Translations under genes and position numbers: made by a program
Notes under the pieces: model-generated
The model's input: only the letters and a program-made list of their open reading frames with translations
The model's database searches: none
What the model was told of the DNA's origin: nothing
Part shown: in pieces, positions 5,664 to 59,936 of the stretch
How positions within the stretch are numbered: position 1 is the first letter of the stretch
Layout: each line of letters starts with the position of its first letter
From: Cupriavidus sp. EM10
GTDB taxonomy: Bacteria > Pseudomonadota > Gammaproteobacteria > Burkholderiales > Burkholderiaceae
DNA: 64,000 nt
Reading direction: 5' to 3'
Assembly (NCBI RefSeq): GCF_018729255.1
Contig: NZ_CP076062.1
Coordinates: forward strand, 248,001-312,000

Positions 5664-5779
5664 GTAGTGCGCCCCCTCTCTCTATGCAGAGCTCTGGCAA
5701 GGACAAAACGATCAGCCGACAGGCCGGTGGATGTCTGCCGCTCTCACTCTGGCGACGATTTTGCGTATGATATAGTATA

Positions 5780-5796
5780 GATACGTGTTACGTATC
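5780..5796. promoter_or_regulatory. 17-bp palindromic operator, best copy
   Basis: GATACGTGTTACGTATC: two perfect 7-base arms (GATACGT and ACGTATC) around GTT. It lies between divergent genes and just after a TATAGT that may be a -10 element. Close copies occur at 56603 and 59881 and weaker ones at 10665, 13027 and 52259, which suggests one dimeric DNA-binding regulator. Confidence 0.6.
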
Positions 5797-5803
5797 GAAG
5801 CGT

Positions 5804-6172
5804 ATGTATTCGACGACATCACTACCGCCCATGAACCAACTAGTCAGTGAACCAGCGCCACCACAGACGGTGGAATCCGAGGCCCTCTTCCTGTGTGGTG
5901 AGGCGTTCATGCAGATTCGCAAGCTCAGCGGGATCGTGGCAGAGCCAAAGCCTCGCCGCGGCGTTTTCGGACGATTTTCCCCAACTGATCGGGGTGCGGC
6001 GGATCGCCGTTCCAGGGCCGCCGCGTTGATCTACGAGCTTTCCGACGTCGCCCACAACCTGCCCGAGATGGTGAGGCTGGGGGTGCATACCAAACAGTTC
6101 GCCTACTTCTCTCAGCAAACGAACAAGCTTGCGGGGGCGCTAGTAGAGGCACGCAGCCTAGCGAGGATTTGA
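5804..6172 (+). CDS. Hypothetical protein
   Basis: 122 residues from ATG 5804; a second ATG at 5831 is another possible start, and neither has a clear Shine-Dalgarno. The middle is helical and basic, ending AYFSQQTNKLAGALVEARSLARI. It lies directly downstream of the best palindromic operator. Its stop overlaps the region of the next start, so it probably forms an operon with the DUF2726 gene and the membrane genes to 7543. Function unknown. Confidence 0.6.
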   Translation: MYSTTSLPPMNQLVSEPAPPQTVESEALFLCGEAFMQIRKLSGIVAEPKPRRGVFGRFSPTDRGAADRRSRAAALIYELSDVAHNLPEMVRLGVHTKQFAYFSQQTNKLAGALVEARSLARI

Positions 6173-10568: not shown

Positions 10569-10664
10569 TCTTCGGTTCTCGGTGTCGTAGCTGGGGCATC
10601 AATTCTACGCGCATTGCTGCTGCGGCCATCCGTGCCGGTGCGAAAATGAACCTTCTGTATTATC

Positions 10665-10693
10665 GGTGCGTGTTATGCATACGTGATATGATT
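10665..10693. promoter_or_regulatory. Operator-like sequence in a divergent promoter region
   Basis: GGTGCGTGTTATGCATA matches the 17-bp operator consensus at about 12 of 17 positions and is followed by CGTGATATGATT, where TATGAT (10687) is a good -10 element. The 13027 region has the same extended pattern (TTATGCATACGTG then TATGA). The gap 10569-10781 has no gene. Confidence 0.4.
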
Positions 10694-11470: not shown

Positions 11471-12088
11471 ATGTCGCGTCAAATAGAGCCGACGGAAGCG
11501 GAAATCGCTAGCTACAACGACCAGGCGTATGGCAAGGCGGTATTGATCGGCGCGATGATGGACATTGGACAAACCTTCGCGAGTAGTTCTCACCATGCGG
11601 AGCACGGTAGCTTTTCGATTGTGGCCCTTCGGACTGACCATCTTGGTCGCCTCAGCCGGGCACTCATCCGATTACTGACGCACATGATCGGGTGGCTAGA
11701 TCGCCCGGAGCCAGTTCGCTGTCAGAGGGCCCCGAGTCGGGTGACAACAAGACAGCGGAAGATAGCCACGATCCTCTGGACGGCTTGCTTGCGGCCACAG
11801 GTGCCGTGGGAGCGTCAGTTTGCGGCGACCTCGCCAGGTGAATGTTGGGTGCTCATGAAGATCAATCAACGAGAGGTGAAAGTCCCGGTGGCGCTGCCAG
11901 AAAACTGGAGCGCAGAGGCAGACACGTTTGGTAGCGTTGTCATCACTGCCTACGATTCCGATAATCGCTTCCAGGGAGCGCTGACTCAAGTAAAAAATGA
12001 ACCCGCATCCTCTAACGGATGCGGGTCGGGTTCATTCTTCAACGCGGTGGAAATCAGTCCGCTTGTGATTCGGTCTGCGCCGCAATGA
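11471..12088 (+). CDS. Hypothetical protein; region may hold two genes and a frameshift
   Basis: One frame of 205 codons is open from ATG 11471. The middle (codons about 78-125) is poor protein sequence. In another frame, 11700-11841 reads well (EGPESGDNKTAEDSHDPLDG ... SVCGDLAR, stop at 11839). A second start at ATG 11855 opens MKINQREVKVPVALPENWSA to 12088. I think this is a first gene 11471-11841 with one base missing near 11695, and a second small gene 11855-12088. The last 12 codons overlap the convergent gene and its terminator. No family recognised. Confidence 0.45.
   Translation: MSRQIEPTEAEIASYNDQAYGKAVLIGAMMDIGQTFASSSHHAEHGSFSIVALRTDHLGRLSRALIRLLTHMIGWLDRPEPVRCQRAPSRVTTRQRKIATILWTACLRPQVPWERQFAATSPGECWVLMKINQREVKVPVALPENWSAEADTFGSVVITAYDSDNRFQGALTQVKNEPASSNGCGSGSFFNAVEISPLVIRSAPQ
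11992..12025 (-). terminator. Rho-independent terminator of the 12054-12380 gene
   Basis: On the minus strand a perfect 9-bp stem (CCCGCATCC / GGATGCGGG, loop GTTAGA) is followed by TTCATTTTTT. It lies 29 bases after the stop of the leftward gene. Confidence 0.75.
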
Positions 12089-12380
12089 AACTGCCGACGT
12101 CGGTACGCACCAGGCGCTGACAGTCGCTTGGTAGATCCGCGAGGCTGACACGGCGGCCAAGATGCCGGCCAGGAGCTGCAGAACAGTAGGCGCCGATACC
12201 ATGGAACGGGCTCTCGTTCATGCCACGTGCCCCGTACATACCAGTTCGCTCACGATCGAACAGGTACACGGCGGTATAGCGATCAAGAGTCTTTCCGCCA
12301 TTGTCGTACAGACGTACCCGCTTCGAGATGACGGCCTCTACTGAAAGCGACGCTTGTCGAACAGCCAGTTGTTGATGCAT
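12054..12380 (-). CDS. Single-gene unit with conserved leader; hypothetical protein
   Basis: 108 residues from ATG 12380, preceded by AGGAGAG. No family recognised. The chain is mixed, with VRLYDNGGKTLDRYTAVYLF and a later Cys/Gly-rich part. It is one of the genes with the shared leader (box TGTGGGGCATCCCT, then TGCAATGTCAACTCAGGAG) and its own terminator. This leader has the best complementarity to the predicted small RNA at 14379-14487 (11 contiguous bases over the Shine-Dalgarno). Confidence 0.6.
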   Translation of the reverse strand: MHQQLAVRQASLSVEAVISKRVRLYDNGGKTLDRYTAVYLFDRERTGMYGARGMNESPFHGIGAYCSAAPGRHLGRRVSLADLPSDCQRLVRTDVGSFIAAQTESQAD

Positions 12381-12388
12381 TTGAGTCT

Positions 12389-12424
12389 CTCCTGAGTTGA
12401 CATTGCAGAGAGGGATGCCCCACA
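12389..12424 (-). promoter_or_regulatory. Conserved leader, copy 1
   Basis: Reads TGTGGGGCATCCCT (12424-12411), then TGCAATG and TCAACTCAGGAG down to 12389. CAACTCAGGAG (12399-12389) is the exact reverse complement of CTCCTGAGTTG at 14417-14427, and TGCAA matches TTGCA at 14449-14453. Confidence 0.6.
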
Positions 12425-12485
12425 TCGGCCTGTAATGATCGCCGTACCCGTTTCTGCGAGGTGCGCGCGTCGTCAGTGCTCCAAC

Positions 12486-12560: not shown

Positions 12561-12836
12561 TCAGTTCGTTGGAAGCAAGGCTTCATCAGCGGCGAGTACT
12601 TGGCGCTTGCGTTTGGCTTCTGCCGCCATGGTTTCGATGTCCTCGGTGCTCATTCCGATCAGGGCATTCCAGCAAGCCACCAGGCGACGAGCGCGCTCCT
12701 CCGATTGAGGTGAGCGTCGGCGGGAGCCGCCTTCGGTCAGGTAGACGAGCCCCATCGCCACGGGGTCGGCATCGGTGAACAACCGTGCAGGACTGGCGTT
12801 GGTGTGGGGCAAGCTGAGTTCTTCGTTGTGGATCAT
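12561..12836 (-). CDS. Single-gene unit with conserved leader; phage-like small protein
   Basis: 91 residues from ATG 12836, with AAGGAGAA at good spacing. The segment ERARRLVACWNALIGMSTED is common in small proteins of phages and plasmids of beta-proteobacteria, whose function is not known. The unit carries a leader box (TGTGATGCATCTCT at 12900-12887) and its own terminator. Confidence 0.65.
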   Translation of the reverse strand: MIHNEELSLPHTNASPARLFTDADPVAMGLVYLTEGGSRRRSPQSEERARRLVACWNALIGMSTEDIETMAAEAKRKRQVLAADEALLPTN

Positions 12837-12845: not shown

Positions 12846-12900
12846 TCCTTGAATGGTAGACGGCTAAGCCGCCGTTGTTGGTTCATAGAGATGCATCACA
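12846..12900 (-). promoter_or_regulatory. Conserved leader, copy 2
   Basis: TGTGATGCATCTCT (12900-12887), then AACCAACAACGG and a small CGGC-TTA-GCCG hairpin before AAGGAGAA. The box equals that of the 54749 unit (TGTGATGCATCTCC) except for the last base. Confidence 0.5.
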
Positions 12901-13026
12901 TGCGGACGCATGAGCTGCTGCGTGGGCCGCCGGCGCCTTCGCGAGGCTTTGCCCTGGCCACGCGCGAGTACGGCGGCACGGGTGGAAGGGAGCCACCGGG
13001 CGCCGGGATTTGCCTGCATCATTCGA

Positions 13027-13052
13027 CTTACGTATTATGCATACGTGTTATG
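13027..13052. promoter_or_regulatory. Operator-like sequence before the methyltransferase gene
   Basis: CTTACGTATTATGCATA and, overlapping it, CATACGTGTTATG both resemble the 17-bp operator. TTCGAC (13022) and TGTTAT (13046) could be -35 and -10 with an 18-base spacer that holds the site. Confidence 0.4.
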
Positions 13053-13068
13053 ACGCATGAGGCGATAA

Positions 13069-14324
13069 ATGGAATCATCAACGACGCAACTGGATTTGTT
13101 TGGGCACATCACCGCGGCCTATGCAGACGCCCCAAATGGGGCGCTCGACAACCAGCGGTTGTACGAGGTTCTGGCGGACAGTGGCGCCATTGATGCGGCT
13201 GCGCTGGAGCGCCGCGTGCCGGTTGGCGCGAGTGGCGCGATGCACAGTACAGAGAAGCGCCGCCTTCGTTGGTACCAGCAAACTCTCCGGCGGGCCGGGG
13301 TCCTTGAGCGTGTCGAGGGTGAGCGGGGGGTCTGGAAGCTCGCCGATGCGGCGAGCAAGGATCTGTGCAAGGCGCAGGCGACGACGAAACTGGTTGCCTT
13401 CAGTACAGATCTCGGCGTTGCAATATGGAGCAAGGCCGAAAGCACCTTCCCCAGTTTTGACGAGCCGATCGCGCTCGTGGTCACTTCGACCCCTTATCCA
13501 TTGCGACGGCCACGTGCGTACGGGAACCCGACGGAGGCCGATTACGTTGACTTCATCTGCCATGCAGTGGAGCCGATTGCCAAAATCTAATCCCAGGGGC
13601 CTCGGTGATCCTAAACATCGGTCTGGACATATTCGAGGAGAAGAGTCCGGCGCGTTCCCTCTACCCCGAACGTCTTACCCTGGCACTTCGCGATCGGCTC
13701 GGATTGAGCCTTATGGACCGCATCCCCTGGGTGAACTATTCGAAGCCGCCGGGCCCCACATACTGGGCCTGCGTGAAACGGGTCCAGCTCTCCGCCGCAT
13801 ACGAGCAGGTGCTCTGGCTGACAAACGATCCATTGAAGGTTCGATCGGACAACCGGCGCGTACTTGAACCGCATACAGATCGACACATGGAGCTCATGCA
13901 GAGCGGCGGCGCCAACCGGACTGCCATCTACGGCGACGGAGCGTACCGGCTGCGGCCAAGCTCCTTTGGCAAGGTTACTTCCGGCAAGATTCCGCGGAAC
14001 GTCATAGAGCGCGGCCATGCCTGTTCGGACACGCGCGCCTATCGCCAGCATGCGAAGGCCCTTGGCCTTCCAATCCACGGCGCCATGCAGCCGACCGATA
14101 TCGCGGACTTTTTTATCCGCCTCTGCACTGAACCTGGTGAGTTGGTGGTTGACCTCTTTGCCGGGACCGTGAAGACGGGGCTGGCAGCCGAACGTCTGGG
14201 CAGGAGATGGCTGGTAACCGAAATGATGCTCTCCTACCTCCGGGGTGCGGCGGAGATGTTCCGCGGCGCACCGGGGTTCAATCTCAATCCTGCGCTCGAG
14301 TGTGTCAGTGGAATGCGCGGCTGA
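13069..14324 (+). CDS. Site-specific DNA methyltransferase (N4/N6 beta-class), frameshifted
   Basis: Two adjacent frames (13069-13590 and 13605-14324) together make one methyltransferase. The first carries the motif IV region ALVVTSTPYPLRRPRAYGNP and breaks after EPIAK. With one more A in the run at 13582-13585 the chain continues NLIPGASVILNIGLDIFEEK into the second frame. The second carries VVDLFAGTVKTGLAAERLGR (motif I, FxGT) near the C-terminus, the circular order of this class. Motif IV is STPY where the family has SPPY, so activity is doubtful even if the frame is repaired. It starts about 25 bases after an operator-like sequence. Confidence 0.75.
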
Positions 14325-14372
14325 TACCCCGGGGTAATAGTAGTTGCCAACAGAATTTGGCTGCGGTCTAAT
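14325..14372 (+). promoter_or_regulatory. Promoter and palindrome of predicted small RNA 1
   Basis: Palindrome TACCCCGGGGTA (14325-14336), -35 TTGCCA (14344-14349), 17-base spacer, -10 TCTAAT (14367-14372). The same arrangement, with identical -35 and -10 hexamers and spacer length, occurs at 56342-56390. Confidence 0.65.
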
Positions 14373-14378
14373 GTATCC

Positions 14379-14487
14379 ATGTTGAGTGACAAACACTCTT
14401 TCACCGAATTCTGACGCTCCTGAGTTGGAAATGGCCTAACGGCCAACCTTGCACCACGAGGCCCGCCCTTAAAAAGGCGGGCTTTTT
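14379..14487 (+). ncRNA. Predicted small RNA 1 (paralogue of 56397-56512)
   Basis: About 109 nt from the predicted start to a strong terminator (GCCCGCC / GGCGGGC then TTTTT, 14461-14487), with no reasonable ORF. Predicted order: hairpin GAGTG-ACAAA-CACTC, then CTCCTGAGTTGG (14417-14428), hairpin TGGCC-TAAC-GGCCA, then CTTGCA (14448-14453). The second predicted RNA has the same order with different stem bases. CTCCT, GTTG and TTGCA are complementary, in antiparallel order, to the AGGAG, CAAC and GCAA parts of the shared gene leaders. Expression and function are inferred. Confidence 0.55.
14461..14487 (+). terminator. Rho-independent terminator of small RNA 1
   Basis: 7-bp GC stem GCCCGCC/GGCGGGC with an A-rich loop and TTTTT tail. 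Confidence 0.85.
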
Positions 14488-14615
14488 GGTTTGTGGGCTT
14501 TACCTGCAGCGCGGGGAGTAATCCGATGCCGAACAAAATTGGGCTTTATTCCGAGTCCTGCCCCGGCCTTGTCTATAGTAGGATGTTATACGTAAGGTAA
14601 ATTGGAGACCGGTGA

Positions 14616-14903
14616 ATGGCTACATTGAAAGACCTTCTTGCTCAGAAGGAAAAATTAGAGGCGCAGATCGCGGAGACTCGCCAGACAGAGGTGGCGGGTG
14701 TCATTCAGAGGATTCAGGAACTGATGGCGGAGTATGGCCTTACAGTGGACGACATTGCCAAGCGATCGCGGCGAGGTCCCAAGAAGGGCCAGCCTATCGC
14801 GCCGAAGTATCGCGATCCCAAGACCGGCAAGACGTGGTCTGGCCGCGGGAGGCAGCCCTCTTGGCTAGGGCGGAATCCGAATAGGTTCTTGATCGCTGAG
14901 TAG
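14616..14903 (+). CDS. H-NS family nucleoid-associated protein
   Basis: 95 residues from ATG 14616. The N-terminal part is a coiled coil for dimerisation (LLAQKEKLEAQIAETRQTE). The C-terminal part is the H-NS DNA-binding domain of the beta-proteobacterial type: YRDPKTGKTWSGRGRQPSWL, where the GRGR-like loop enters the AT-rich minor groove. Such proteins on plasmids silence AT-rich DNA and reduce the cost of new DNA. A TATAGT (14574) followed by GTTATACGTAAGG may be the promoter and a degenerate operator. Very confident family call. Confidence 0.95.
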   Translation: MATLKDLLAQKEKLEAQIAETRQTEVAGVIQRIQELMAEYGLTVDDIAKRSRRGPKKGQPIAPKYRDPKTGKTWSGRGRQPSWLGRNPNRFLIAE

Positions 14904-15002
14904 TATGATGGACCAGGCCACCGGCGGCGTTCTGCCGGCTGGCCCACCACTGCAGTCCCCCCCCCGACTGCCTGCCGCTTTAGTGCTGAAATTACGCCGC
15001 GG

Positions 15003-15040
15003 CGTTTCGCATACCTCTCCGCAAGTCAACCCATCAGGAG
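15003..15040 (+). promoter_or_regulatory. Conserved leader, copy 3
   Basis: CGTTTCGCATACCT (15003-15016), GCAAGTCAACCC (15021-15032), CAGGAG (15035-15040). It aligns with the 54095 leader over about 45 bases, although the genes behind them are unrelated. Confidence 0.65.
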
Positions 15041-15046
15041 AGCTCT

Positions 15047-15397
15047 GTGCAATCTTTCATTCACCTGGAAGATCCGGCTGTTCAAGCCGCGATCATTAGT
15101 GCCGTCGGTAGTATTCTGACCAGTGCGATCGCCGCACTGTGCGCGGCCATCATCGGCAGACAAATCAGTGGTAGGAAGCGACTGCAGGACAAGCTGCTCG
15201 TTGCTCAGGACGACATCGAGTTCCTCCTGCAAGTCGAGAAGGCGCACTGCGTCATCCACAAGGAGCGCGACCAAAGCTCGAATAAGCTCATAGTCCGGAA
15301 TGCCGTACGGGACAAAGGCTTTGAGTACTCAGGCAAGTTCTCGCCCGGAAAAGTGGCCTACAACGATGGCCCAGGCCGTCGCTACAGTAAGGCGTAG
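15047..15397 (+). CDS. Single-gene unit with conserved leader; single-span membrane protein
   Basis: 116 residues from GTG 15047, after AGGAGAGCTCT. Residues about 12-38 (AAIISAVGSILTSAIAALCA) form one membrane helix, followed by a basic cytosolic helix (GRQISGRKRLQDKLLVAQDD) and a polar tail. No family recognised. It stands alone between a conserved leader and its own terminator. Confidence 0.6.
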   Translation: MQSFIHLEDPAVQAAIISAVGSILTSAIAALCAAIIGRQISGRKRLQDKLLVAQDDIEFLLQVEKAHCVIHKERDQSSNKLIVRNAVRDKGFEYSGKFSPGKVAYNDGPGRRYSKA

Positions 15398-15461: not shown

Positions 15462-15507
15462 TTCTTCTCTCCCCGCCAGGAATGGGTAGGCAGATCTTCC
15501 ACTGCGC

Positions 15508-15563
15508 TGTGCGGCATAACAAGCTATCCACCAACGGCTCCCACGCCACGCACTCGCAAGGAG
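15508..15563 (+). promoter_or_regulatory. Conserved leader, copy 4 (divergent)
   Basis: Box TGTGCGGCATAACA (15508-15521), then CCACCAACGG and CGCAAGGAGAC before ATG 15571. The CAAGTCAAC part is not well kept. Confidence 0.45.
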
Positions 15564-15570: not shown

Positions 15571-16050
15571 ATGCTGTCACTGGCCCTCAACTATCCGACG
15601 ATCGAGTTCAACACCAACGCCTGCGGCGAACTGCATACCGGCGATGCTCCTCAAGGCATCCTGGCTGCAGTTCCGTTCCAGGATGGCCCCGGGTATGTAC
15701 TCCCGTACCTCGCGACGATCAACGATCGCTTTTATGTTCTTGGCAATCTGGAAGTCGCCTTCAGTGATGAGTTCTGGGGCAGGGATGCTGAGGATCTTCC
15801 GGACGAGGAGCTTGTCATGTCCGAGTGCACGCAAGCTGTCCTGGCTATGCGAGAACGGGCATCGGGTTCCATGATTGTCTTCCCGGTGGACTTCGATCCC
15901 ATGCCGGCACGCTGCGTCATCTCCGTGGCCATTCCCGTACAGGATGGCCAAACCCAACGGGAAATCAAGGATCAGCTGTCACTTGTCTTCTCAGGTTACG
16001 AGCAGCTCGACGACCGGCTGATGAAGCTTGTCAGGGCTCGATCGTATTGA
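15571..16050 (+). CDS. Single-gene unit with conserved leader; hypothetical soluble protein
   Basis: 159 residues from ATG 15571 after CAAGGAGAC. Acidic and mixed alpha/beta, for example DRFYVLGNLEVAFSDEFWG and MIVFPVDFDPMPARCVISVA. No signal peptide. No family recognised. The 3' end and terminator (16051-16105) closely resemble those of the unrelated 17010-17981 gene. Confidence 0.6.
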   Translation: MLSLALNYPTIEFNTNACGELHTGDAPQGILAAVPFQDGPGYVLPYLATINDRFYVLGNLEVAFSDEFWGRDAEDLPDEELVMSECTQAVLAMRERASGSMIVFPVDFDPMPARCVISVAIPVQDGQTQREIKDQLSLVFSGYEQLDDRLMKLVRARSY

Positions 16051-16105: not shown

Positions 16106-16155
16106 CCCGCAAGCAGCGCGCCGCTGGCGCTAGACCGTCTTACCTTGCGCGAACC

Positions 16156-16210
16156 TGTGGCTCATACCTTCAGCGTCAAGACATCGATTCTGGCTCAAGT
16201 CAACACCAAT
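16156..16210 (+). promoter_or_regulatory. Conserved leader, copy 5
   Basis: Box TGTGGCTCATACCT (16156-16169), GCGTCAAGAC, then CTCAAGTCAACACC. It is longer than other copies: the start codon is at 16277. Confidence 0.45.
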
Positions 16211-16276: not shown

Positions 16277-16840
16277 ATGAGCAATAGCATGAACCTACCG
16301 AAGATCGCGAGACGCACCGATGTGTTCGAGCTGCGCAACGCCCTTCGAGCCGTGATTGGGAGCTGCAAAGCAACAAACAAGGCGGCAGTGCTAGCAGTTG
16401 ACGCTGCAGAGGAAGCGTTTCAGGCGAGCATCACAGATGAAGAGAAGGCGTACATCGCATCTGCCGCCCGTCGGTGGAAAGTCGCTTGGCATAAGAGCCG
16501 GCCGGACGATCCCTTCCTTCGTGGCGTGGAGTTAAATGCCTACGATGACGTCCGGCACCATTTGGGGATGTCGATGGTGGTCAAGTTCCTCCAGGACGCC
16601 CAGAGCGAATCATTGGCAGAGCCTGACACCCGTCGTATCGCTGGTCTCGTGCTGGAAGCGGGCGATGAATCCGTGCTCGATAGTGTAGTGCACGATGAGT
16701 GCTCTGCTCGTGCCACGGGAATCAACAATGACGGTACTGAAGCACAGGTGGCATTTCTCCTATCGAACGGTTGGACCGAAGAGGCGATCCTGAAGGAAGC
16801 CGGTGTTGATCAGGCGCCGCGCAGCTTGTCGCAAACGTGA
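16277..16840 (+). CDS. Single-gene unit with conserved leader; hypothetical protein
   Basis: 187 residues from ATG 16277, preceded by CTGGAGAAGC; an earlier in-frame start would run through the leader. Mostly helical (NKAAVLAVDAAEEAFQASIT, EEKAYIASAARRWKVAW), soluble and acidic. No family recognised. Own terminator follows. Confidence 0.6.
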   Translation: MSNSMNLPKIARRTDVFELRNALRAVIGSCKATNKAAVLAVDAAEEAFQASITDEEKAYIASAARRWKVAWHKSRPDDPFLRGVELNAYDDVRHHLGMSMVVKFLQDAQSESLAEPDTRRIAGLVLEAGDESVLDSVVHDECSARATGINNDGTEAQVAFLLSNGWTEEAILKEAGVDQAPRSLSQT

Positions 16841-16880: not shown

Positions 16881-16963
16881 CTTTAGGCCCAGCCTGCCCG
16901 CTGAACAGCCCGCGTGCACTGTACTCGGCATGGCGCCCCGTATCCCAAAAGATTACTTGACGC

Positions 16964-17000
16964 TGTGCTGCATCCCTCCCAGGTCAAATCAACCTTGGAG
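16964..17000 (+). promoter_or_regulatory. Conserved leader, copy 6
   Basis: TGTGCTGCATCCCT (16964-16977), CCAGGTCAAATCAACC, then GGAG at 16997-17000. It is followed by the DpdA-like gene. Confidence 0.55.
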
Positions 17001-17009: not shown

Positions 17010-17981
17010 ATGAATGGAGAGACGATGGGAATGCCGGTAGGACAGGTGAATGCGATCCTGGAAGATGAGTTGGTCATGCGGATTGGCATTCCGCACCGCG
17101 GTGGCCGCCTGGCCTTCCACGCATTCGAGCAAGGCTACCCAGCGATGGTGAGCGCGAACGCGTTCTGGAACCCAACGAAGCGTGAATTTGTAATGCCGGC
17201 GGCGACGGATCTGACTGAGATGGATTTCGCCCTAGACTCAGCTGGTTACTCGGCGATCAGTCTTTGGCAGAAGAAGGGCCGACAAGACGGCATTGCCGGC
17301 GTCTATCCATGGTCCCTCGAGCAGTACCTGGAGTTTGCAAATCTGTGTGGTGCTCGCTGGATGTCTAGTCCCGACCTTTGCTGCGAGCCGCAGGTTGCGG
17401 GCAACCAAGAGGAAGTGGACTACCGCGTGAACACAACGGCAACTTTGCTGGAGGCGTCGTTACGCGTGTTGTACGAGTGGCAAAACAGGCTCGCAAGGAC
17501 CCTAACTGCGCGCGAAGTGGCGAACATGATCAAGCCAATCGTACCCGTACTGCAGGGATGGAACGTGGAGACGTATCTACGAAGTCTCGATCTAACAATG
17601 CAAGTATGGGAGCGCTGGCAACCGTGGCTGGCCCCACCCGCTCTGATCGGTGTCGGTTCAGTATGCCGGCGTTCGCTGAATCACCCTACTCACGGCCTGT
17701 ACGCCATTCTCTCGGGATTGGAGGGACGGTTGCCTAAAGGTGTTCGCGCTCACTTGTTCGGTATTAAGGGGAGCTGTCTCGCGGAGCTCAAGATGATGGA
17801 TTGGATCGCTTCCGCGGACTCCATGGCGTATGACTTCGGTGCCCGCGTGAAAGCTCGGGAGTGCGGGGTATCGAACACGATCGAGCACCGGTCATCAGAA
17901 ATGAGTCGATGGATGTCGTCGGCCGCGTCTCGCCTCAAGCCCGCACCCGGTGACCAGTTCCGACTGAGCCTGTCCCATTGA
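17010..17981 (+). CDS. DpdA-like tRNA-guanine transglycosylase paralogue, putative DNA 7-deazaguanine insertion enzyme
   Basis: 323 residues from ATG 17010, with GGAG 9 bases upstream. The sequence follows the TGT/DpdA pattern. FALDSAGYSAIS (Asp76) sits where TGT has its SDSGGF motif. PVLQGWNVETYLRSLDL is near 179-196, GVGSVCRR near 214-221, and ADSMAYDFGAR (Asp270) where TGT has the nucleophile aspartate. DpdA enzymes exchange guanine for preQ0-type bases in DNA, in bacterial dpd islands and in phages. No preQ0 synthesis genes are in the window, so the base would come from the host. A role in protecting transferred DNA from restriction is inference. It has the shared leader and terminator modules. 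Confidence 0.75.
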   Translation: MNGETMGMPVGQVNAILEDELVMRIGIPHRGGRLAFHAFEQGYPAMVSANAFWNPTKREFVMPAATDLTEMDFALDSAGYSAISLWQKKGRQDGIAGVYPWSLEQYLEFANLCGARWMSSPDLCCEPQVAGNQEEVDYRVNTTATLLEASLRVLYEWQNRLARTLTAREVANMIKPIVPVLQGWNVETYLRSLDLTMQVWERWQPWLAPPALIGVGSVCRRSLNHPTHGLYAILSGLEGRLPKGVRAHLFGIKGSCLAELKMMDWIASADSMAYDFGARVKARECGVSNTIEHRSSEMSRWMSSAASRLKPAPGDQFRLSLSH

Positions 17982-18035: not shown

Positions 18036-18090
18036 CGGCAGATGGCGACGAGGCGAAGGTGGCGCCCAGGCCTTCATGTTTGCATGATCC

Positions 18091-18123
18091 TGTGCTGCAT
18101 ATCTCCCAAGTCAACACAACTAT
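18091..18123 (+). promoter_or_regulatory. Conserved leader, copy 7
   Basis: TGTGCTGCATATCT (18091-18104), CCCAAGTCAACACAAC, then GGAG before ATG 18139. The gene behind it seems cut by the recombinase element. Confidence 0.55.
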
Positions 18124-18138: not shown

Positions 18139-18321
18139 ATGAACGAGAACTTATTGGGGAATGCGAAGCGACAGGCTATGCGCAGAACTATGGAATCACG
18201 CGAACAGAAGCTTCCGGAAGGTTGGACCGAAGCGAGTCCAGGAGGGTTAGCAACTAACCCTGACCCCTCACCGGGGGAATCATCGATAGAGCTATCGTCG
18301 ATTAAGAGGTACCATGGCTAG
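18139..18321 (+). CDS. Leader-unit gene, probably truncated by the downstream mobile element
   Basis: 60 codons from ATG 18139, behind a conserved leader. The first ~35 residues (MNENLLGNAKRQAMRRTMES) look like a basic soluble protein. The end (PSPGESSIELSSIKRYHG) reads through DNA that seems to belong to the recombinase element, starting near the inverted repeat at 18245. No terminator follows, unlike the other units. The intact gene is not recognisable. Confidence 0.4.
   Translation: MNENLLGNAKRQAMRRTMESREQKLPEGWTEASPGGLATNPDPSPGESSIELSSIKRYHG
18245..18261. repeat. Inverted repeat upstream of the recombinase operon
   Basis: GGGTTAG-CAA-CTAACCC, two perfect 7-base arms. A second symmetrical sequence, CGATAG-AG-CTATCG, lies at about 18285-18298. 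Both could be recombinase binding sites at the left end of the element or operators of its promoter. Confidence 0.4.
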
Positions 18322-18382: not shown

Positions 18383-19561
18383 GTGCTCGTCCGTACTCAA
18401 GCAGTTCCTGAACATGTCATCGTTGACCCCGTGAGACACATGCCAAGACTATGGTCCACGGCGTGGTCCCTAGGCCTCACGAGTAGTTCTCAGGCGACCA
18501 GCACGCGAAAGCTGTACCTCCAGCATCTGGACAGCTTTTATCGGTACTGTGACGAACGCTTCGGTGCCGACGCCTTCGACGAGGGTATGAGCACTCGGGA
18601 CGCTGAGGGCGTGATGCTCATGGTGGAGTCGTTCTATCTAACGACAACCTCCGACCCGGCCTACAACACGACTGATGTTCAGCGGTGGGGCGTAGTCAGA
18701 GCATTCGTGCAATCGCTGGCCAAACGCTTAGCGCCTAGTAACCCAGAGTGGGCCGCAGCTGCTTCTATGCTGGCAGCCATGGGCAGGATGCGCGCCCCCC
18801 GTCTCGGTGGCTTCCGCTTCATTCGTGCGCTGCCGAAAACAACGCTGCTGGACCTCCTTGAGGTAGCGCATCCCAGCTCGCCTCGAAATCCTTTCAAGGG
18901 GTATCAAACGCGCGTGCGGAACTGGCTCATCGTCAACCTAATGCTGCTGGCTGGGCTCCGTCGTGGCGAAGCACTGCTGTTGGCCTGTGACTCCTTGAAG
19001 GAAGACGTGGACCCGGAGTCAGGAGAGGTGGTTCGTTGGCTTGACATCACCACGGTGTTCGAGAACGATCCGAGGTCGACCACGCCACGCATCAAAACTC
19101 TGGAATCCCACAGGCAAATTCCGGTGTCAGAGGACTTAGCTCTGCTCTACCAGCACTTCGCCGCCGAGCATCGACCTACCGATGCCGGACATGGTTTCCT
19201 ACTGACCACCAAGGCGGGGGCCCCGCTCTCTGCCGAGGCACTAAGTAAGGTCTTCAGGAAACTGACGGATGCCCTGGCACCCGAGGCAATCCAAAGCCTC
19301 TTCGATAGATCTGGCGGCAAGACGAACATTTCGCCTCACGACCTGCGACACACCTGCGCCACGGCCAGATACACGATGTTTATGGAGCTGAACCCCGACC
19401 GCGAGTTGGCAATCCAACGGATGCGGGCGTTCTTCGGATGGTCAGCGAGGTCAGCCATGCCTGAGCACTACGCACGTGCGGCGATTCAGGACGACTTGAT
19501 GCAAGCATGGAACACACTGTTTGCTGAAAAGACTAGTCTTATGCGGGGGATTTCTGCGTGA
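18383..19561 (+). CDS. Tyrosine recombinase, first of three
   Basis: 392 residues from GTG 18383 (ATG 18440 possible). Catalytic residues: Arg in LLAGLRRGEALL, His-x-x-Arg in SPHDLRHTCA, Tyr in MPEHYARAA. The usual second His of LGH is replaced in FFGWSAR, where Trp may serve. It cuts and rejoins DNA through a 3'-phosphotyrosine. Overlaps the next gene by 4 bases (GTGA), so the three act together. Confidence 0.9.
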   Translation: MLVRTQAVPEHVIVDPVRHMPRLWSTAWSLGLTSSSQATSTRKLYLQHLDSFYRYCDERFGADAFDEGMSTRDAEGVMLMVESFYLTTTSDPAYNTTDVQRWGVVRAFVQSLAKRLAPSNPEWAAAASMLAAMGRMRAPRLGGFRFIRALPKTTLLDLLEVAHPSSPRNPFKGYQTRVRNWLIVNLMLLAGLRRGEALLLACDSLKEDVDPESGEVVRWLDITTVFENDPRSTTPRIKTLESHRQIPVSEDLALLYQHFAAEHRPTDAGHGFLLTTKAGAPLSAEALSKVFRKLTDALAPEAIQSLFDRSGGKTNISPHDLRHTCATARYTMFMELNPDRELAIQRMRAFFGWSARSAMPEHYARAAIQDDLMQAWNTLFAEKTSLMRGISA

Positions 19562-21051
19562 ACCACGCCATTGAAATCGCCCTCCCGCAACCTCAGTCCG
19601 AGCATGGTGGGAAATCTCCCTTGGACTGGAAGTGGCCCGCTGCCCCCGCGTTGATGACCCTTTTCGACAAGTATTCCGGACGGGAGTCGGTGGTGAGGTT
19701 GGCGGACCGTCACTGGGAGGTCTTTGCAGCTGGCAGCACGGTACGGCTGGAGTTCGCCGAGGGTCAAGTTGGCGAATTACAGCGAGCGCTTGTTCTGCTG
19801 ACACGACGGGCGTCCTCCCCAGCACCATTCCGGACCTTCGCCAACGTCCTCATAGCCAAATGGCCAGCCATCTTGGAACTGCTCGCTACCCCTGCGGAAA
19901 AGCTGCGAGAGACCTGGACCACTGTGCTGAGCCACCCGCTGGAGACGAACGTCGCGAAGGCCGTGTTGAAGCTAGCTTGCAAGGCTGGCGCCGGCCACTG
20001 GCGAGCAGTTCACATGCCTCTCGTGAAGAGCTTGGACACCTTCGTGAAGGAAGGCCTCCGGCAGAACAAGCGAAGCATAGGCAAGAGAGAGCGTGTGGCT
20101 TCCGTTGACGCCCAGGCAGCTATTGTTCGAGTTCTGGATGCGGCGGCGAGCGAGGACGACTTGACCGACAGACAGGTGGAGGGCGCTGTCGCACTGCTTA
20201 TCACCTACCAACACGGTATGCGACCAGTTCAGGCGCTGTGCCTCGACGTGACGCATGTCCGCTTCTTCCGTGATGCAAGCGACGACCTTGCTTGCGTGCT
20301 CTCGTTCCATGCTGCAAAGCAAACACCAGGCAACGAATTCGAGTTGCTACGCCAAGTCAAACCGGAGTGGGTTCCGCTCGTCGCGAGGCTGCACGCGACG
20401 GCGCTCGCTCACGGGCGGCTGCGGCTATTCAACGCAACCGGACCAATTACCTTCTGGGACAGGGCAGTGGTTCTCTGTAAGCGGTTCTCCGTGCAACTGG
20501 ACAGCACGGCGCGCTCGCTCCGTCACACCGGGGCGCAAACGCTCGCCGATGCGGGGCATGATAGGGCTAGCATCCAAGCGTTCCTCGGCCACAAGAGCGC
20601 AGAGGCCGCGTCGCACTACATCCGGGCAAGCTTCAAGCAAGCCGAGCTCATCAACACGGCGCTCGGTGCGTCGAAACTCTACAACAGCCTCTTGGACATA
20701 TCGACCGGCAGTTTCGTCTCAGCCGACGAGATACAGCTGGCTCCTGAGGACCAGCAGATTGGCGCTGTGGTGGGGTATCGGCTGGTTGCTGGCGTGGGAC
20801 TGTGCAAAGCGGGTCAGAGCAGCTGCGCCTACAACCCGGTGACGTCTTGCTATGGCTGTCCGAAGTTCATGCCATCCCTAGACCGGGAATCCCACGTCGA
20901 AGCTATCGAAGGGATGCGCGACCAAGTCCGCCTGTACCTAAAGCAGGGAATCTCCGATGAGACGCCGGCCTACCGGCAACTCACGCGCGCGCTGGCGGGG
21001 GCGCAGCAGGCGTTAACCCTGATTGATGACCGACCCAAGAACCACGGATGA
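19558..21051 (+). CDS. Tyrosine recombinase, second of three
   Basis: 497 residues from a GTG overlapping the previous stop. Catalytic positions: Arg in YQHGMRPVQAL, Arg-His in RSLRHTGAQT, LGH in AFLGHKSAEAA and Tyr in SHYIRA. A C-terminal cysteine cluster (CKAGQSSCAYNPVTSCYGCP) probably binds zinc, as in TnpB of Tn554-type elements. The His before LRH is not present. Confidence 0.88.
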   Translation: MNHAIEIALPQPQSEHGGKSPLDWKWPAAPALMTLFDKYSGRESVVRLADRHWEVFAAGSTVRLEFAEGQVGELQRALVLLTRRASSPAPFRTFANVLIAKWPAILELLATPAEKLRETWTTVLSHPLETNVAKAVLKLACKAGAGHWRAVHMPLVKSLDTFVKEGLRQNKRSIGKRERVASVDAQAAIVRVLDAAASEDDLTDRQVEGAVALLITYQHGMRPVQALCLDVTHVRFFRDASDDLACVLSFHAAKQTPGNEFELLRQVKPEWVPLVARLHATALAHGRLRLFNATGPITFWDRAVVLCKRFSVQLDSTARSLRHTGAQTLADAGHDRASIQAFLGHKSAEAASHYIRASFKQAELINTALGASKLYNSLLDISTGSFVSADEIQLAPEDQQIGAVVGYRLVAGVGLCKAGQSSCAYNPVTSCYGCPKFMPSLDRESHVEAIEGMRDQVRLYLKQGISDETPAYRQLTRALAGAQQALTLIDDRPKNHG

Positions 21052-22976
21052 CCATCCACATCCTCTCGCCTCAACTGACGCCACCGCCGCAGGCCTATCT
21101 GAGCTTCATCGACCGGATGCGTCGTGTCGCTTCATCGCACGGACTTGACTGGCACATCGAACTCGACAGCAACGGCGCCGCCACGTCTAACACGGACTGG
21201 GACTTACGCAAGTTGAACAAAAGCCATGACCTCCACGTCCCTGGAAGTTGTGGCTTTGCGGTGTCGCGCGACCTGACCGCGATGGCGGCCTCAACTGGAT
21301 GGCACCCCAGCCAATTGCCGGAAGGCGCGGTGCTCGGTGAAGACGTGCAGGACTTCATCAAAGCCCTAATCGTCGAGCACTGCAGCAGCGGCCGCTCGAC
21401 CGGCGACACACAACAAATAGCCAGAGCTGCTCGTCGCCTCTTCTCTCTGGTTCGATGCCCGCCGTGGGAGCTTTCACGTGAAAACTTTGACGCCGTCTTG
21501 GGCCTTAAGGCCTGGTCCGACAAGCCGGCGCGCGACTTCTCAACGGTCGCGAGGTACATCGACGAGAACCTCATCTCCGTTCATTGCCCAGTCCGCCCGG
21601 AACTAAAAAGGAAGGAGTCGTCAGCGTTGCTCGGCTCGCTGCAGGAACGCCAGCACGCCGAGAAGCTACCGGACCTTTCCGCGCTACTTGAACTGACGCG
21701 AATCGTCTTCCAGGAGACGCCCCAGACCTACATGGACGCAGTTCGCTTCGGTGTCGTGAAACTGGCTCTGTTCACGGGACTGCGAATCGAGGAGGTGCTG
21801 ACGATACCCGCCGACTGCTTGGTTTGGGATGAACACCTCGACATAGTCACCGGCCGCCCGGCCGGAACGGTGGGCGGCGTCTCACGCTCCTTGCGACTGC
21901 ACTATTACGCCGAGAAGCACATCGACGGCGCCCCAAATCTGCTTGTTGAGGCACACCAGCATGTGCCCGCGATGTTCGAAGATGTTGTGGTCTCAACGGT
22001 CACTGAGATGGTAGAGATTGTCGGCCCCGTCCGAGAGCTGCTGCGCCTGCAACAGCAGAACCCCAGCCGATTTCCTGACTCGGATTGCCGGATTTTTCGT
22101 ACCTCCTCCGGGAGGCCAGTTTGGACTAGCGACCGCCTATTTCTGAGCCTGGGGCGGAGCACGGCAGGACGAACTTACCCGCTCCAGCTTCCCCTTCAAG
22201 AGGACACAGAAATCAAGCCGATGCTGTACCCGGGAATGCTCATCGCGCTAGGACGTCATGCAGGCCGGTCGATGTTCAGTGTGTACGGACGGTCGCCTGA
22301 GTCGAAGTTGATGTCAATCAAGCCGCACAGTCTTCGGCATCTCATGAACACAGAGATGTTCCGTAAGAATGTGCCTGACACCATCATTACGCACCAGTTC
22401 GGTCGACGGACCGTCGCTCAGAGCTACGAGTATGACCATCGCAACCTCGCAGAGAAGTTGAGCTTCGTCAAACTGCCGCCTGCAGCGTCCAAGGTCCTTC
22501 CCGCAGGAAGCGCCAAGGAATTGGTGGGCAAGATGGTCGTCAGTGGTATGGCGCTGCAAAGCCATTTGGGGCAATCGTTTAAGCGCATCCAGCACGAGAG
22601 CGGTGATGAAGCAGCCTTCATCTACTTGGCGGCCAACGCAGATGGCTTCCACGTCACGCCGTACGGTTTCTGCACCAACAGCTTCTCTGTCAATCCCTGC
22701 ACTCGACACCTCAAGTGCTTCGACCAGTGCAAGCACTTTACGGCCAGCGGGGTCGCTGAGCACCGGGTGACTCTTGAAGACCTTCGCTCGAAGCTCGTGG
22801 CGATGCGGGACGCGGCTCGTTGCAAGCCGGCCACCACCGTGGGGCGCAAGAACCAGATTGCCCATGCCGAGCGGCTGATTGCTGGTGTGTCGGCTGCGCT
22901 TCACGCCCAACCGAACCAATCCGTCTTCGCAGACGGCATCGACCATTCCACCCTGAAAGAGGACATCTTCAAATGA
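21048..22976 (+). CDS. Tyrosine recombinase, third and largest
   Basis: 642 residues from ATG 21048 (ATGA overlap). Core: Arg in LFTGLRIEEVLTI, HSLRH in IKPHSLRHLMN, QFGRRTV where LGH is usual, and Tyr in SYEYDHRNL. A C-terminal Cys/His group (CTRHLKCFDQCKHF) may bind zinc. The length compares with TnpB-type recombinases of about 630 residues. It overlaps the next gene by 4 bases. Confidence 0.88.
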   Translation: MTIHILSPQLTPPPQAYLSFIDRMRRVASSHGLDWHIELDSNGAATSNTDWDLRKLNKSHDLHVPGSCGFAVSRDLTAMAASTGWHPSQLPEGAVLGEDVQDFIKALIVEHCSSGRSTGDTQQIARAARRLFSLVRCPPWELSRENFDAVLGLKAWSDKPARDFSTVARYIDENLISVHCPVRPELKRKESSALLGSLQERQHAEKLPDLSALLELTRIVFQETPQTYMDAVRFGVVKLALFTGLRIEEVLTIPADCLVWDEHLDIVTGRPAGTVGGVSRSLRLHYYAEKHIDGAPNLLVEAHQHVPAMFEDVVVSTVTEMVEIVGPVRELLRLQQQNPSRFPDSDCRIFRTSSGRPVWTSDRLFLSLGRSTAGRTYPLQLPLQEDTEIKPMLYPGMLIALGRHAGRSMFSVYGRSPESKLMSIKPHSLRHLMNTEMFRKNVPDTIITHQFGRRTVAQSYEYDHRNLAEKLSFVKLPPAASKVLPAGSAKELVGKMVVSGMALQSHLGQSFKRIQHESGDEAAFIYLAANADGFHVTPYGFCTNSFSVNPCTRHLKCFDQCKHFTASGVAEHRVTLEDLRSKLVAMRDAARCKPATTVGRKNQIAHAERLIAGVSAALHAQPNQSVFADGIDHSTLKEDIFK

Positions 22977-30859: not shown

Positions 30860-32574
30860 ATGGCATTCACCATTGAACGTTCACGCTACGTGCAACTGTA
30901 CGGCCCCAGCTCAGGCGACAGCGTCCGCCTCGGCGACACAGGGCTATGGGCCCGGGTCGAGCGTGACTACTGTCATGGCGGCGACGAACTTGTTTTGGTG
31001 CCGGCAAGACGATCCGTGCAGGGACTGGCTGCGACGGCGCGATGACAGCGGCGGACGGCGTTCTCGACCTTGTCGTCACCAACGCACTGATCATCGACGC
31101 GGTGGCCGGCATCATCAAGGCGGACATCGGCATAAAGCAAGGGCGGATTGTTGGTATTGGCAAGGCCGGGGATCCCAACATCATGGATGGCGTGAGCCCT
31201 CAGCTTATCGTCGGGGTCAATACCGACATCAGAGCCGCCGAAGGATTGATCGTCACGACCGGAGGCATCGATTGCCATGTCCACTTCATCGACCCGGGTC
31301 AGGTGGATGAGGCCCTGTGCGCAGGCATCACGACCTTGATGGGCGGGGGACTCGGTCCCACCACGGTTCCGATCGCCTCAACCGGCACAACCAACCTAGG
31401 TCTGATGCTACAGGCGGCTGAGGCGTTCCCAGTGAACTTCGGCTTCATCGGCAAGGCTGCGTCACACACCGTGGCGCCCCTGATTGAACAACTCGCCTCT
31501 GGGGCCGCCGGCCTCAAAGTCCATGAAGACTGGGGCGCCAGTTCGGCCGTCATCGACGCCGCACTCCAGGCTGCTGACATTGGCGGTGGCCAGATCCAAC
31601 TGCACACCGACACCCTAAACGAATCGGGCTTCATCGAGCATACTTTGCGCGCGATCGGTGACCGATGCATCCATGCATACCACGTCGAGGGCGCGGGCGG
31701 CGGGCATGCGCCCGACATCATCCGCATTTGCGGCAAGGCGAATGTGTTGCCGTCTTCGACCAATCCAACCAATCCGTTCACGGTCAACACCTTTGACGAG
31801 CACTTCGACATGGCGATGACAAGCCATCATCTGAATCCTCGATTACCGGAGGACGTTGCCTTCGCGGAGAGTCGTATCCGCCGCGAGACGATCGGCGCCG
31901 AAGATGTATTGCACGACCTAGGAGCAATCAGCGCTATCGGCTCTGACAGCCAGGGTATGGGGCGCATTGGCGAGACGATCGCAAGGACCTGGCAGCTGGC
32001 TGAGCACATGCGTGATCTGCGCGGCAGTCTTTCTGAGGACCTCGGCACGGGCGCCGATAACCACCGAATCCTGAGGTACATCGCCAAGTACACGATCAAC
32101 CCTGCAAAGATGTTCGGCATCGATCACGAGGTCGGATCCATTGCTCCGGGAAAGTTGGCCGACCTGGTTTTCTGGCGTCCCGACAGTTTCGGCATCAAAC
32201 CGGAGTTGGTCATGAAATCGGGTTTCCCTGTATGGGCACCGCTTGGGGAAGCCAATGCATCTCTGATGACCTGCGAGCCGTTGCGCTACCGGCCCATGTG
32301 GGGCTGCTTCGGTCGTGCGCCACAGGCGCTGGGCGTGCGCTTTGTCGCGCCGCCTTCCATCGCTGCAGACATCGGCCGCAGGCTCGACCTTAAATCCGCT
32401 CTGGTGGCCGTAACGGACACACGGGGACTGACCAAGCGCAATATGCTCTACAACGATCTGTTGGCCGATATCAGGGTTGATCCAGAAACCTTCCGCGTCT
32501 ACATCGATGGCCAAACGCTGATCAGCGCTCCAGCCACGCGAGTGACGCTGGGGGCCTCCTACATGCTCAAGTGA
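30860..32574 (+). CDS. ureC: Urease alpha subunit UreC, frameshifted, with Ser in place of the flap Cys
   Basis: Two frames (30860-31045 and 31042-32574). One more T in the run at 30993-30996 gives [20 protein letters not shown] and joins them into a normal ~570-residue Ure alpha. Nickel ligands: CHVHF, the carbamylated Lys in [27 protein letters not shown] and the Asp in GSDSQGMG. The mobile-flap motif reads MTSHHLN where ureases nearly always have VCHHLD, so the flap Cys is Ser. This Cys is not essential, but its loss may change kinetics or inhibitor sensitivity, or mark an atypical clade. Confidence 0.9.
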
Positions 32575-52281: not shown

Positions 52282-52358
52282 CAGCCTGTATCAAGTTGAT
52301 ATATTTCCGCATGTTGCGCATCCCTCTTCATCGATCAACCCGCAAGGAAGGAGAAGGT

Positions 52359-53162: not shown

Positions 53163-53191
53163 CAGGAGGGGATGTTCGCCTTACACGTCTC

Positions 53192-53235
53192 TGGTCGGCA
53201 TCTCCGATCGCAAGTCAACGCCACTCATTCTGGAG
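53192..53235 (+). promoter_or_regulatory. Conserved leader, copy 8
   Basis: TGGTCGGCATCTCC (53192-53205), GCAAGTCAACG (53210-53220), GGAG (53232-53235). Confidence 0.55.
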
Positions 53236-53243: not shown

Positions 53244-53567
53244 ATGAGCAACGCTGTGAAGCAACCCGTCAGGATTTTTGTCGCATGTTTGGACAGCGCC
53301 TGGAATCCGTCGATTCACACCTGCACGGTGGAAGTGACGGAGGAAGAAGAACTGTTGGGGAAGCACCTCGAACTGGCAAAGGCAGACGCGGTCGCCAACG
53401 GCTTCGAAGGGACGATGATCGCCCTCGATGCCGAGGCAATGCCTCCGAGCAAGCTGCGAGACATCGCAGACTGGCTTGATGACAGCCGCTGGCGTCCAAA
53501 CCCGGTTATCGCTGGCCTGATTGGGCAGAACGCCACCTCCGCTGCTGGCAACGTTATGGAGCGCTGA
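53244..53567 (+). CDS. Single-gene unit with conserved leader; hypothetical protein
   Basis: 107 residues from ATG 53244, after TGGAGATCTC. Soluble alpha/beta (VRIFVACLDSAWNPSIHTCT, EEELLGKHLELAKADAVANG). No family recognised. Own leader and terminator. Confidence 0.6.
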   Translation: MSNAVKQPVRIFVACLDSAWNPSIHTCTVEVTEEEELLGKHLELAKADAVANGFEGTMIALDAEAMPPSKLRDIADWLDDSRWRPNPVIAGLIGQNATSAAGNVMER

Positions 53568-53630: not shown

Positions 53631-53658
53631 CTTTCATGCGTGGGCGGGTAGAGGAGGG

Positions 53659-53701
53659 TGTTTGTCATAACGGTTCGCAAGTTCAACCCCCAACAAAGGA
53701 G
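53659..53701 (+). promoter_or_regulatory. Conserved leader, copy 9
   Basis: TGTTTGTCATAACG (53659-53672), GCAAGTTCAACC (53677-53688), AAAGGAG (53695-53701). Confidence 0.55.
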
Positions 53702-54042: not shown

Positions 54043-54094
54043 GTTACTGCGCGTCGCAGGGCTTGCAGGCGTCACCAGTGCGATTACGGGTAGG

Positions 54095-54141
54095 CGTTCC
54101 GCATACCTACCTGCAAGTCAACCCACCTTACCAGGAGAATC
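54095..54141 (+). promoter_or_regulatory. Conserved leader, copy 10
   Basis: CGTTCCGCATACCT (54095-54108), TGCAAGTCAACCC (54112-54124), AGGAGAATC (54133-54141). The three parts match predicted small RNA 2 by complement: ACTTGCA (7), GGTTG (5) and GATTCTCCT (9 bases), in antiparallel order. Confidence 0.65.
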
Positions 54142-54668: not shown

Positions 54669-54684
54669 GAAGCGTGGGTTTGCT

Positions 54685-54743
54685 TGTGATGCATCTCCGT
54701 TGGCACTCAACCGCGGCTCAACCCGCATACTATTCAGGAGAAT
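54685..54743 (+). promoter_or_regulatory. Conserved leader, copy 11
   Basis: TGTGATGCATCTCC (54685-54698), CACTCAACCGCG, CTCAACCCG, then AGGAGAAT (54736-54743), the latter complementary to ATTCTCCT of small RNA 2. Confidence 0.55.
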
Positions 54744-55112: not shown

Positions 55113-55195
55113 TTCGTAGTCGCCTACTCGTCGTCGCGCGGCACGGCCGCCGCCGCGGCGGCCAGCGTCGCGGGCCTGTGAGGTTTATCTCCCGG

Positions 55196-55225
55196 TGTTT
55201 CCCATACCACACCCGTAAGGCTCAC
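55196..55225 (+). promoter_or_regulatory. Conserved leader, copy 12 (divergent)
   Basis: TGTTTCCCATACCA (55196-55209), then GTAAGGCTCACCCC, a weaker form of GCAAGTCAACCC. AAGGAG precedes ATG 55290. Confidence 0.45.
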
Positions 55226-56512: not shown

Positions 56513-56602
56513 TGGGCTCAGCTTTCCTCTGCGACAGCCCTGGATCGAGCGCGCACGGCCGGCTCTGTCCTGTTTCTTGGCAAGTAGAAAGATCTCACGT
56601 AT

Positions 56603-56619
56603 GATTCGTAACACGTATC
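56603..56619. promoter_or_regulatory. 17-bp palindromic operator, second copy
   Basis: GATTCGTAACACGTATC; its reverse complement matches the 5780 copy at 16 of 17 positions. Followed by TATACGATAAC, and 30 bases later the ATG at 56650. Confidence 0.55.
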
Positions 56620-56649
56620 TATACGATAACTGTCAATCCCACCCGCGTT

Positions 56650-59870: not shown

Positions 59871-59899
59871 TTGACGTATCGATACGTGTTATGTATCAT
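59871..59899 (+). promoter_or_regulatory. Promoter with the 17-bp operator in its spacer
   Basis: TTGACG (59871-59876), 17-base spacer, TATCAT (59894-59899). GATACGTGTTATGTATC (59881-59897) overlaps spacer and -10, so a bound regulator would block RNA polymerase. Differs from the 5780 copy at one base. Confidence 0.65.
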
Positions 59900-59936
59900 A
59901 AGAACCGCTGAGTAACCGAAAAGGTTGATGCCCACC

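Follow-up and report, generated by a model that had tools for sequence, protein, structure and literature searches.

A promoter-like leader shared by unrelated genes of large conjugative plasmids and a plasmid-encoded sigma-like protein proposed to read it

The leader in the window

The window analyzed here is a stretch of 64,000 nucleotides (nt) of Cupriavidus sp. EM10 that covers positions 248001-312000 of plasmid C3 (327,127 bp) in a genome of 6.66 Mb. The original prediction had listed 12 copies of a short leader placed in front of unrelated small genes. All 12 were located in the sequence of the window, and an additional copy, absent from that list, has its core at 52319 on the plus strand, giving 13 in total. 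With the C of the CAT core taken as position 0, the 13 copies align without gaps and show TT at -18, TGT at -7, CATnnC at 0 to +5 and a weak CAAG near +13. T occupied -18 in 9 copies and -17 in all 13; of the TGT bases, the first T (-7) was found in 11 copies, the G (-6) in 13 and the second T (-5) in 12. CAT and the C at +5 were found in every copy, and individual copies may miss other bases. The GCAAGTCAACCC tail is the weaker and more variable part of the leader. The copies (class A elements) are given below with the open reading frame (ORF) that each precedes, its length in amino acids (aa), and the score obtained with a cross-genus matrix trained solely on pBVIE01, pSTY and half of RPME01 (threshold, at least 14).

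12402..12435, minus strand, core 12417: class A element before ORF 12054-12380 (108 aa), score 21.4
12878..12911, minus strand, core 12893: class A element before ORF 12561-12836 (91 aa), score 23.8
14992..15025, plus strand, core 15010: class A element before ORF 15047-15397 (116 aa), score 17.7; the copy under which the original prediction was made
15497..15530, plus strand, core 15515: class A element before ORF 15571-16050 (159 aa), score 15.7
16145..16178, plus strand, core 16163: class A element before ORF 16277-16840 (187 aa), score 11.7, the weakest
16953..16986, plus strand, core 16971: class A element before ORF 17010-17981 (DpdA-like, 323 aa), score 16.5
18080..18113, plus strand, core 18098: class A element before ORF 18139-18321 (60 aa), score 14.4
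52301..52334, plus strand, core 52319: class A element before ORF 52359-52910 (183 aa), score 19.8
53181..53214, plus strand, core 53199: class A element before ORF 53244-53567 (107 aa), score 19.7
53648..53681, plus strand, core 53666: class A element before ORF 53708-53929 (73 aa), score 15.4
54084..54117, plus strand, core 54102: class A element before ORF 54145-54612 (155 aa), score 23.0
54674..54707, plus strand, core 54692: class A element before ORF 54749-55012 (87 aa), score 15.2
55185..55218, plus strand, core 55203: class A element before ORF 55248-56273 (341 aa; 327 aa if begun at 55290), score 16.6

Taken singly, the box and tail strings first put forward showed a merely marginal excess over shuffled sequence: the box, with up to 2 mismatches, matched 27 times versus 18.7 +/- 3.95 expected (27 was reached by 2 of 100 shuffles), and the tail string 12 times versus 6.2 +/- 2.4 (12 was likewise reached by 2 of 100). 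De novo motif search on the upstream regions of the window was significant at 30 bp, though not at 14 bp. The 14-bp search on 90 regions gave 71.4, within the 59.8-79.2 of 12 shuffles, and the 30-bp search gave 143.2, above the best of 20 shuffles (138.0). With the cross-genus matrix, 12 of the 13 leaders scored at least 14 and the remaining one 11.7. The whole window contained 19 matches versus 2 in the reversed window, these 19 being 12 leaders, 5 class B relatives (listed in the last section) and 2 matches within predicted genes. As this matrix was built on other plasmids, it strongly supports that the leader is real and not a product of chance. A promoter-type leader common to unrelated genes, as first proposed, was borne out.

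Spread over plasmids, promoter-like behaviour and the Shine-Dalgarno arm

The same element occurs plasmid-wide on related plasmids, a spread that the original prediction had overlooked although it had recommended looking there. The closest plasmids found, with window positions 40001-62000 as query, were NZ_CP043439 of Cupriavidus campinensis, p1 of C. metallidurans BS1, and pMOL30, whose backbone, according to passages of the CH34 genome paper (PMC2864759), is similar to pBVIE01 along some 60 kb. For a second matrix, refinement used BS1 p1, pMOL30 and the window, leaving pBVIE01 and pSTY outside the training set. Its forward/reversed matches of at least 14 were as follows: BS1 p1 78/3, pMOL30 42/2 (11 of the 42 belonging to a short repeat located at 189-190 kb), C3 74/5, pBVIE01 77/2 and pSTY 52/3. 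Matrix counts include class B relatives: on C3, 54 of 82 matches carried CATnnC and 28 did not. Among 118 distinct sites scoring at least 12, 95 had an ORF preceded by a Shine-Dalgarno sequence within 160 nt, compared with 32% of random positions. An unseeded dyad search of upstream regions ranked TGT-N4-CAT first on C3 (36/278 versus 5.4 expected). The same dyad was strongest on pBVIE01 (54/287 versus 7.6), and also strong on pSTY (28/246 versus 5.4) and the RPME01 half (31/191 versus 3.6). Each of the two gaps of the element had a single peak value in these four data sets.

The own genome has 28 exact core matches, 18 of them on C3, and the reversed pattern was found twice genome-wide. The core pattern with a 10-N gap instead of 8 gave 5 matches, none of them on C3. 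Seven of the 10 matches outside C3 are of the pMOL30 repeat type, which leaves 3, and the chromosomes are almost free of the core; pMOL30 itself has 13 exact core matches, 7 of the repeat type and 6 others. The element was examined on plasmids of Cupriavidus, Burkholderia, Caballeronia, Methylibium and Pseudomonas. It stands on both strands, across the 327-kb plasmid and its relatives, mostly before hypothetical genes, and the suggestion of an early-transfer or anti-restriction gene set was therefore unsupported.

Promoter-like behaviour was tested on 174 ORF-preceding elements of C3, pBVIE01 and pSTY with a simple custom terminator search. An intrinsic terminator was present upstream on the same strand of 50 of them versus 1 in shuffled sequence, and in 30 the T window ended no more than 25 nt from the element or ran into its first bases. 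For example, a hairpin followed by a T stretch ending at 53634, which we read as a terminator, stands 13 nt ahead of the element at 53648..53681. Sigma70-like pairs at -100 to -20 were no commoner than in shuffles, in agreement with the original remark that no normal -35 fits, and no conservation was seen upstream of -19 among distinct sites. Because terminators end at the element and no sigma70 signal lies upstream of it, it is most likely a promoter. The commonest hexamers among the 174 were CATCTC (49), CATATC (24) and CATCCC (19). From the elements, starts on pMOL30 (CP000354 numbering, +/-3 nt, converted by -349 or -384 nt, the offsets between NC_006466.1 and NC_007971.2) are predicted at 11282+, 11983+, 23312-, 34823+, 40788+, 42136+, 43141+, 45161+, 45805+, 46442+, 47054+, 47650+, 54564-, 54630+, 55712+, 136265- and 136415+. 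Transcription starts of CH34 have been mapped by Cappable-seq (PMC9045368); among the pMOL30 starts printed in the parts consulted of that paper, none falls at a predicted element start, and the passages seen of PMC13391042 and PMC9537497 contain nothing on such a motif.

The 13 window leaders folded ordinarily both as RNA (z -1.8 to +1.1) and as DNA (z about -2.5 to +1.44). Rfam covariance models gave no match at any of them, the sole match in the window being at 31019-31305. In several RNA folds the bases after CAT were paired with the Shine-Dalgarno sequence, and we therefore tested this arm against it. Over 172 leaders, positions +4 to +13 fitted their own Shine-Dalgarno better than those of others (z 8.7; reached by 0 of 200 re-pairings), and an arm taken at +2 to +11 gave 0 of 200 in each of C3, pBVIE01 and pSTY. 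The arm was also tailored in the window's 13 leaders (3 of 200) and in 36 elements of plasmid 1 of Aromatoleum aromaticum EbN1 (0 of 200), described below. The stretch from +11 to +20 showed no own-Shine-Dalgarno preference in the same test, and 185 element-free C3 genes showed no tailoring (171 of 200). To judge from this complementarity, an RNA carrying +4 to +13 would hide the gene's own Shine-Dalgarno. The RNA element first considered as an alternative is thus correct as far as this arm goes, although the leaders fold ordinarily and Rfam has no match there. The end of the arm would coincide with a transcription start placed seven bases after CATnnC. If RNA starts there, the seal would exist in read-through RNA alone; if it starts at CAT, the seal would be part of every transcript.

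A sigma-like protein and the proposed reading of the leader

Co-occurring with the element is a gene that had escaped the original prediction, for WP_011514777, a "hypothetical" protein of 381 aa encoded in the same genome at C3 199353-200495, 47.5 kb before the window. Seven element plasmids (W01-W07) contain the exact core 6-17 times (pMOL30 repeat left out) and encode a DUF3150 protein resembling that of BS1 p1, and seven other large plasmids contain the core 0-2 times. The 381-aa family was present on 7 of 7 of the former and 0 of 7 of the latter, and occurs also on Stenotrophomonas plasmids. Among 249 genomes of the bacterial family, the protein was full-length only in the own genome (G000) and G002, which have the top core counts (28 and 27; next 15), and a partial match was found in G190. 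Among the proteins common to five of the plasmids are an XRE regulator and the products of a group of three genes, namely two 94-aa proteins and WP_011514777. The 94-aa genes have, by eye, consensus-like sigma70 promoters, and their products are possible co-factors or anti-sigmas. On pMOL30 they lie at 13887-14168 and 14356-14637, and one has four cysteines.

The modelled N-terminus of WP_011514777 matches sigma region 2, and the best structural and profile matches of this domain are extracytoplasmic function (ECF) sigma factors (E. coli sigmaE, CnrH of pMOL28, SigZ). The C-terminus gives HTH_3/XRE profile matches, with XRE-type folds at residues 245-306. Unlike in ECF sigma factors, it thus matches XRE-type helix-turn-helix (HTH) domains rather than region 4; as region 4 is likewise an HTH, the matches may still stand for one. 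The leader boxes, too, would differ, lying some 30 and 19 bp ahead of the inferred start, not 35 bp. In further searches, PF04542 used on three plasmids found nothing up to E 10, NCBIfam sigma models scored P0001 and P0004 at 13-26 bits (cut-offs 43-212), a sequence search of solved structures with the family returned weak, mostly HTH matches, and hhalign to sigma factors of the own genome was weak (10 proteins below 345 aa, of 13 recovered from 14 of 17 match loci).

The tblastn search reached EbN1 plasmid 1 and its WP_011254847, annotated as 'sigma-70 family RNA polymerase sigma factor'. By hhalign, this protein and the WP_011514777 family align over 289 columns (prob 99.4), including the region-2 part and both HTHs, at 27% identity. 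HTH1 is 49% identical to that of the Cupriavidus protein, and HTH2, which has diverged, 20%. The exact Cupriavidus core is absent from EbN1 plasmid 1. Its unseeded dyads were TTT-N16-CAT, CAT-N9-GCA and TTA-N15-CAT, and refinement seeded with TT-N16-CAT yielded TTTT(A/C)-N15-CATCTC-N5-TGCAG in 39 of 141 regions. The matrix of this variant matched the whole plasmid 40 times at 14 or above, versus 3 reversed. This homologue is thus accompanied on its own plasmid by a TT-N16-CATnnC element with the same Shine-Dalgarno arm; the variant retains CATCTC and the TT spacing, whereas the TGT box is lost. More remotely, contig C3 of G190 (176,879 bp, same genus) encodes a third, very divergent region-2-like and HTH protein, with no clear plasmid-wide dyad or element detected on that contig, and pAt1 of Allochromatium has an HTH-only relative (185 aa) and 1 exact core match.

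WP_011514777 probably reads the leader element, and we propose that it is a plasmid-encoded sigma factor of new architecture. One class B relative, upstream of a topoisomerase operon, has TATAAT in the register of CATnnC, and for this reason we read CATnnC as a -10. The sigma-like protein would join host RNA polymerase through its region-2 domain, which would recognize CATnnC, while the C-terminal XRE-type HTHs would replace region 4 and contact TT and TGT. Transcription would begin near +12, at CAAG. Read-through transcripts would carry the arm, pair with their own Shine-Dalgarno and stay silent, and those begun at +12 would lack the arm and be translated. Since promoters close to the sigma70 consensus precede the small genes beside the sigma-like gene, the programme could be set going there by host polymerase. 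We hold it fairly probable that the leader is a promoter class private to large plasmids of mating-pair formation type F (MPF_F), fused to a translational lock and read by a sigma factor of the WP_011514777 family. For a wider claim our confidence is evenly balanced, namely that region 2 joined to Cro/C1-type HTHs forms a new sigma class, private to a broad family of conjugative megaplasmids. This class would recognize TT-N10-TGT-N4-CATnnC ahead of tens of genes on each plasmid, with overlapping, gene-specific anti-Shine-Dalgarno arms silencing read-through RNA so that genes answer solely to the plasmid factor, and with promoter and factor co-evolving between lineages.

The original prediction had named an activator-dependent promoter element as one possibility, of which we retain the promoter and judge the sigma-like protein a likelier reader than a classical activator. 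AcaCD and other FlhDC-like activators, and MotA at T4 middle promoters with its box near -30, illustrate how one regulator can serve many operons. Here, host polymerase, carrying sigma70 or a different host sigma, would be helped at TT-N10-TGT by a plasmid activator, most likely the XRE regulator encoded beside DUF3150, CATnnC being a deliberately poor -10. The XRE gene belongs to the core of five plasmids and, inspected by eye, the sequence upstream of it has a sigma70-like appearance in 4 of 5; the class B sites, which share TTA and TGT, one of them with TATAAT in the -10 register, would also suit an activator. However, it is the sigma-like protein that has a distant homologue accompanied by a corresponding variant element (EbN1 was not searched for the XRE gene), the model of the XRE regulator gives plain HTH matches only, and CATnnC is conserved across plasmids of several genera, which makes an activator rather unlikely. 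We find it quite unlikely, too, that the leader acts mainly as an RNA switch, in which RNA would start at CAT or earlier, the arm would keep the Shine-Dalgarno closed until some condition or plasmid factor released it, and TT, TGT and CAT would be promoter or start bases of another polymerase specificity. The fit of arm to own Shine-Dalgarno in every element set, and its lack in element-free genes, is what a switch would give, but the leader as a whole folds with ordinary energy, no conservation extends upstream of -19, and the arm ends at the start expected seven bases after CATnnC, as if native RNA lacked it. Nevertheless, the arm test fits either start site; this weighs against the sigma reading, which we hold less firmly on that account, and the switch correspondingly more. 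In IS10-type fold-back inhibition, an upstream arm seals the Shine-Dalgarno solely in RNA read in from outside. The leader would be like it in the sealing of read-through RNA, and is unlike it in being no transposon.

Two further explanations appear very improbable. A single-strand hairpin promoter of the F-plasmid Frpo type, for early expression in the recipient, would suit a conjugative plasmid whose leader genes are small and mostly of no known function, yet just 2 of the 13 leaders fold below z -2 as DNA, the others lying between -1.43 and +1.44, and copies stand on both strands of the whole plasmid. Copying of a spreading cassette with no dedicated reader could also give unrelated genes one leader; copies would however share intervening bases, whereas scattered bases at fixed spacing alone are conserved, in several genera.

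In the chiefly open-access literature consulted, the sole plasmid-encoded sigma factor with a plasmid regulon that we noticed was SigN (ZpdN) of the Bacillus subtilis plasmid pBS32. In the parts seen of the SigN papers, its regulon is largely limited to its own plasmid and its gene also has host-sigma (SigA) promoters (PMC6751061, PMC10601692). By computation, WP_011514777 fits this type, with its gene on the plasmid and the elements mostly there, and, by eye, host-sigma promoters again stand before the small genes next to it; the likeness is one of description. As far as those parts go, SigN differs in being Gram-positive, in using -35 and -10 boxes, in LexA control and in its link to cell death. 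The genome paper of CH34 gives, in the passages seen, 0 sigma factors for the replicon that, by column order, we take as pMOL30 (PMC2864759), so that a testable sigma claim is made here for a gene left uncounted as such. The proposed reading also adds a sigma architecture with an exchanged upstream-box reader, implies, for tens of uncharacterised genes per plasmid, particular transcription starts and insulation at the level of translation, and offers a sequence-based account of how unrelated hosts could express, as one unit, very large conjugative plasmids with many unnamed genes.

Class B relatives and other features of the window

Class B sites have the form TTA..TACGTGTTAYGnAT, in the register of the leader, and some precede transfer or topoisomerase operons. 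Their regular expression matched 13 times on C3, 18 on pBVIE01, 10 on pSTY and 7 on pMOL30. The window contains the following.

5775..5808, plus strand, core 5793: class B relative, TTA/TGT/YAT register with TACGTGTTA block
10660..10693, plus strand, core 10678: class B relative
13035..13068, plus strand, core 13053: class B relative; a second register, at 13040, overlaps it
56591..56624, minus strand, core 56606: class B relative
59876..59909, plus strand, core 59894: class B relative

Among the ORFs behind class A elements, 17010-17981 matched Pfam PF23859 (3.9e-16), and 18139-18321 encodes 60 aa versus 93 aa in its BS1 counterpart. Two ORFs at 13069-14324 (Mrr_N-like and N6_N4 methylase) take the place of a single annotated DNA methyltransferase gene of 1257 bp in BS1 and C. 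campinensis. The two leader clusters are about 34 kb apart in the window and about 6 kb apart in BS1 p1. The stretch of about 18300-47700, not found between the clusters of BS1 p1, holds three ORFs resembling tyrosine recombinases (18440-22976), genes for urease and for branched-chain ABC transport, and one for an MBL protein. The Rfam match at 31019-31305 is to 5_ureB_sRNA (43.6 bits, cut-off 40). It lies on the strand opposite urease ORF 31042-32574, and coding conservation may be its sole cause.
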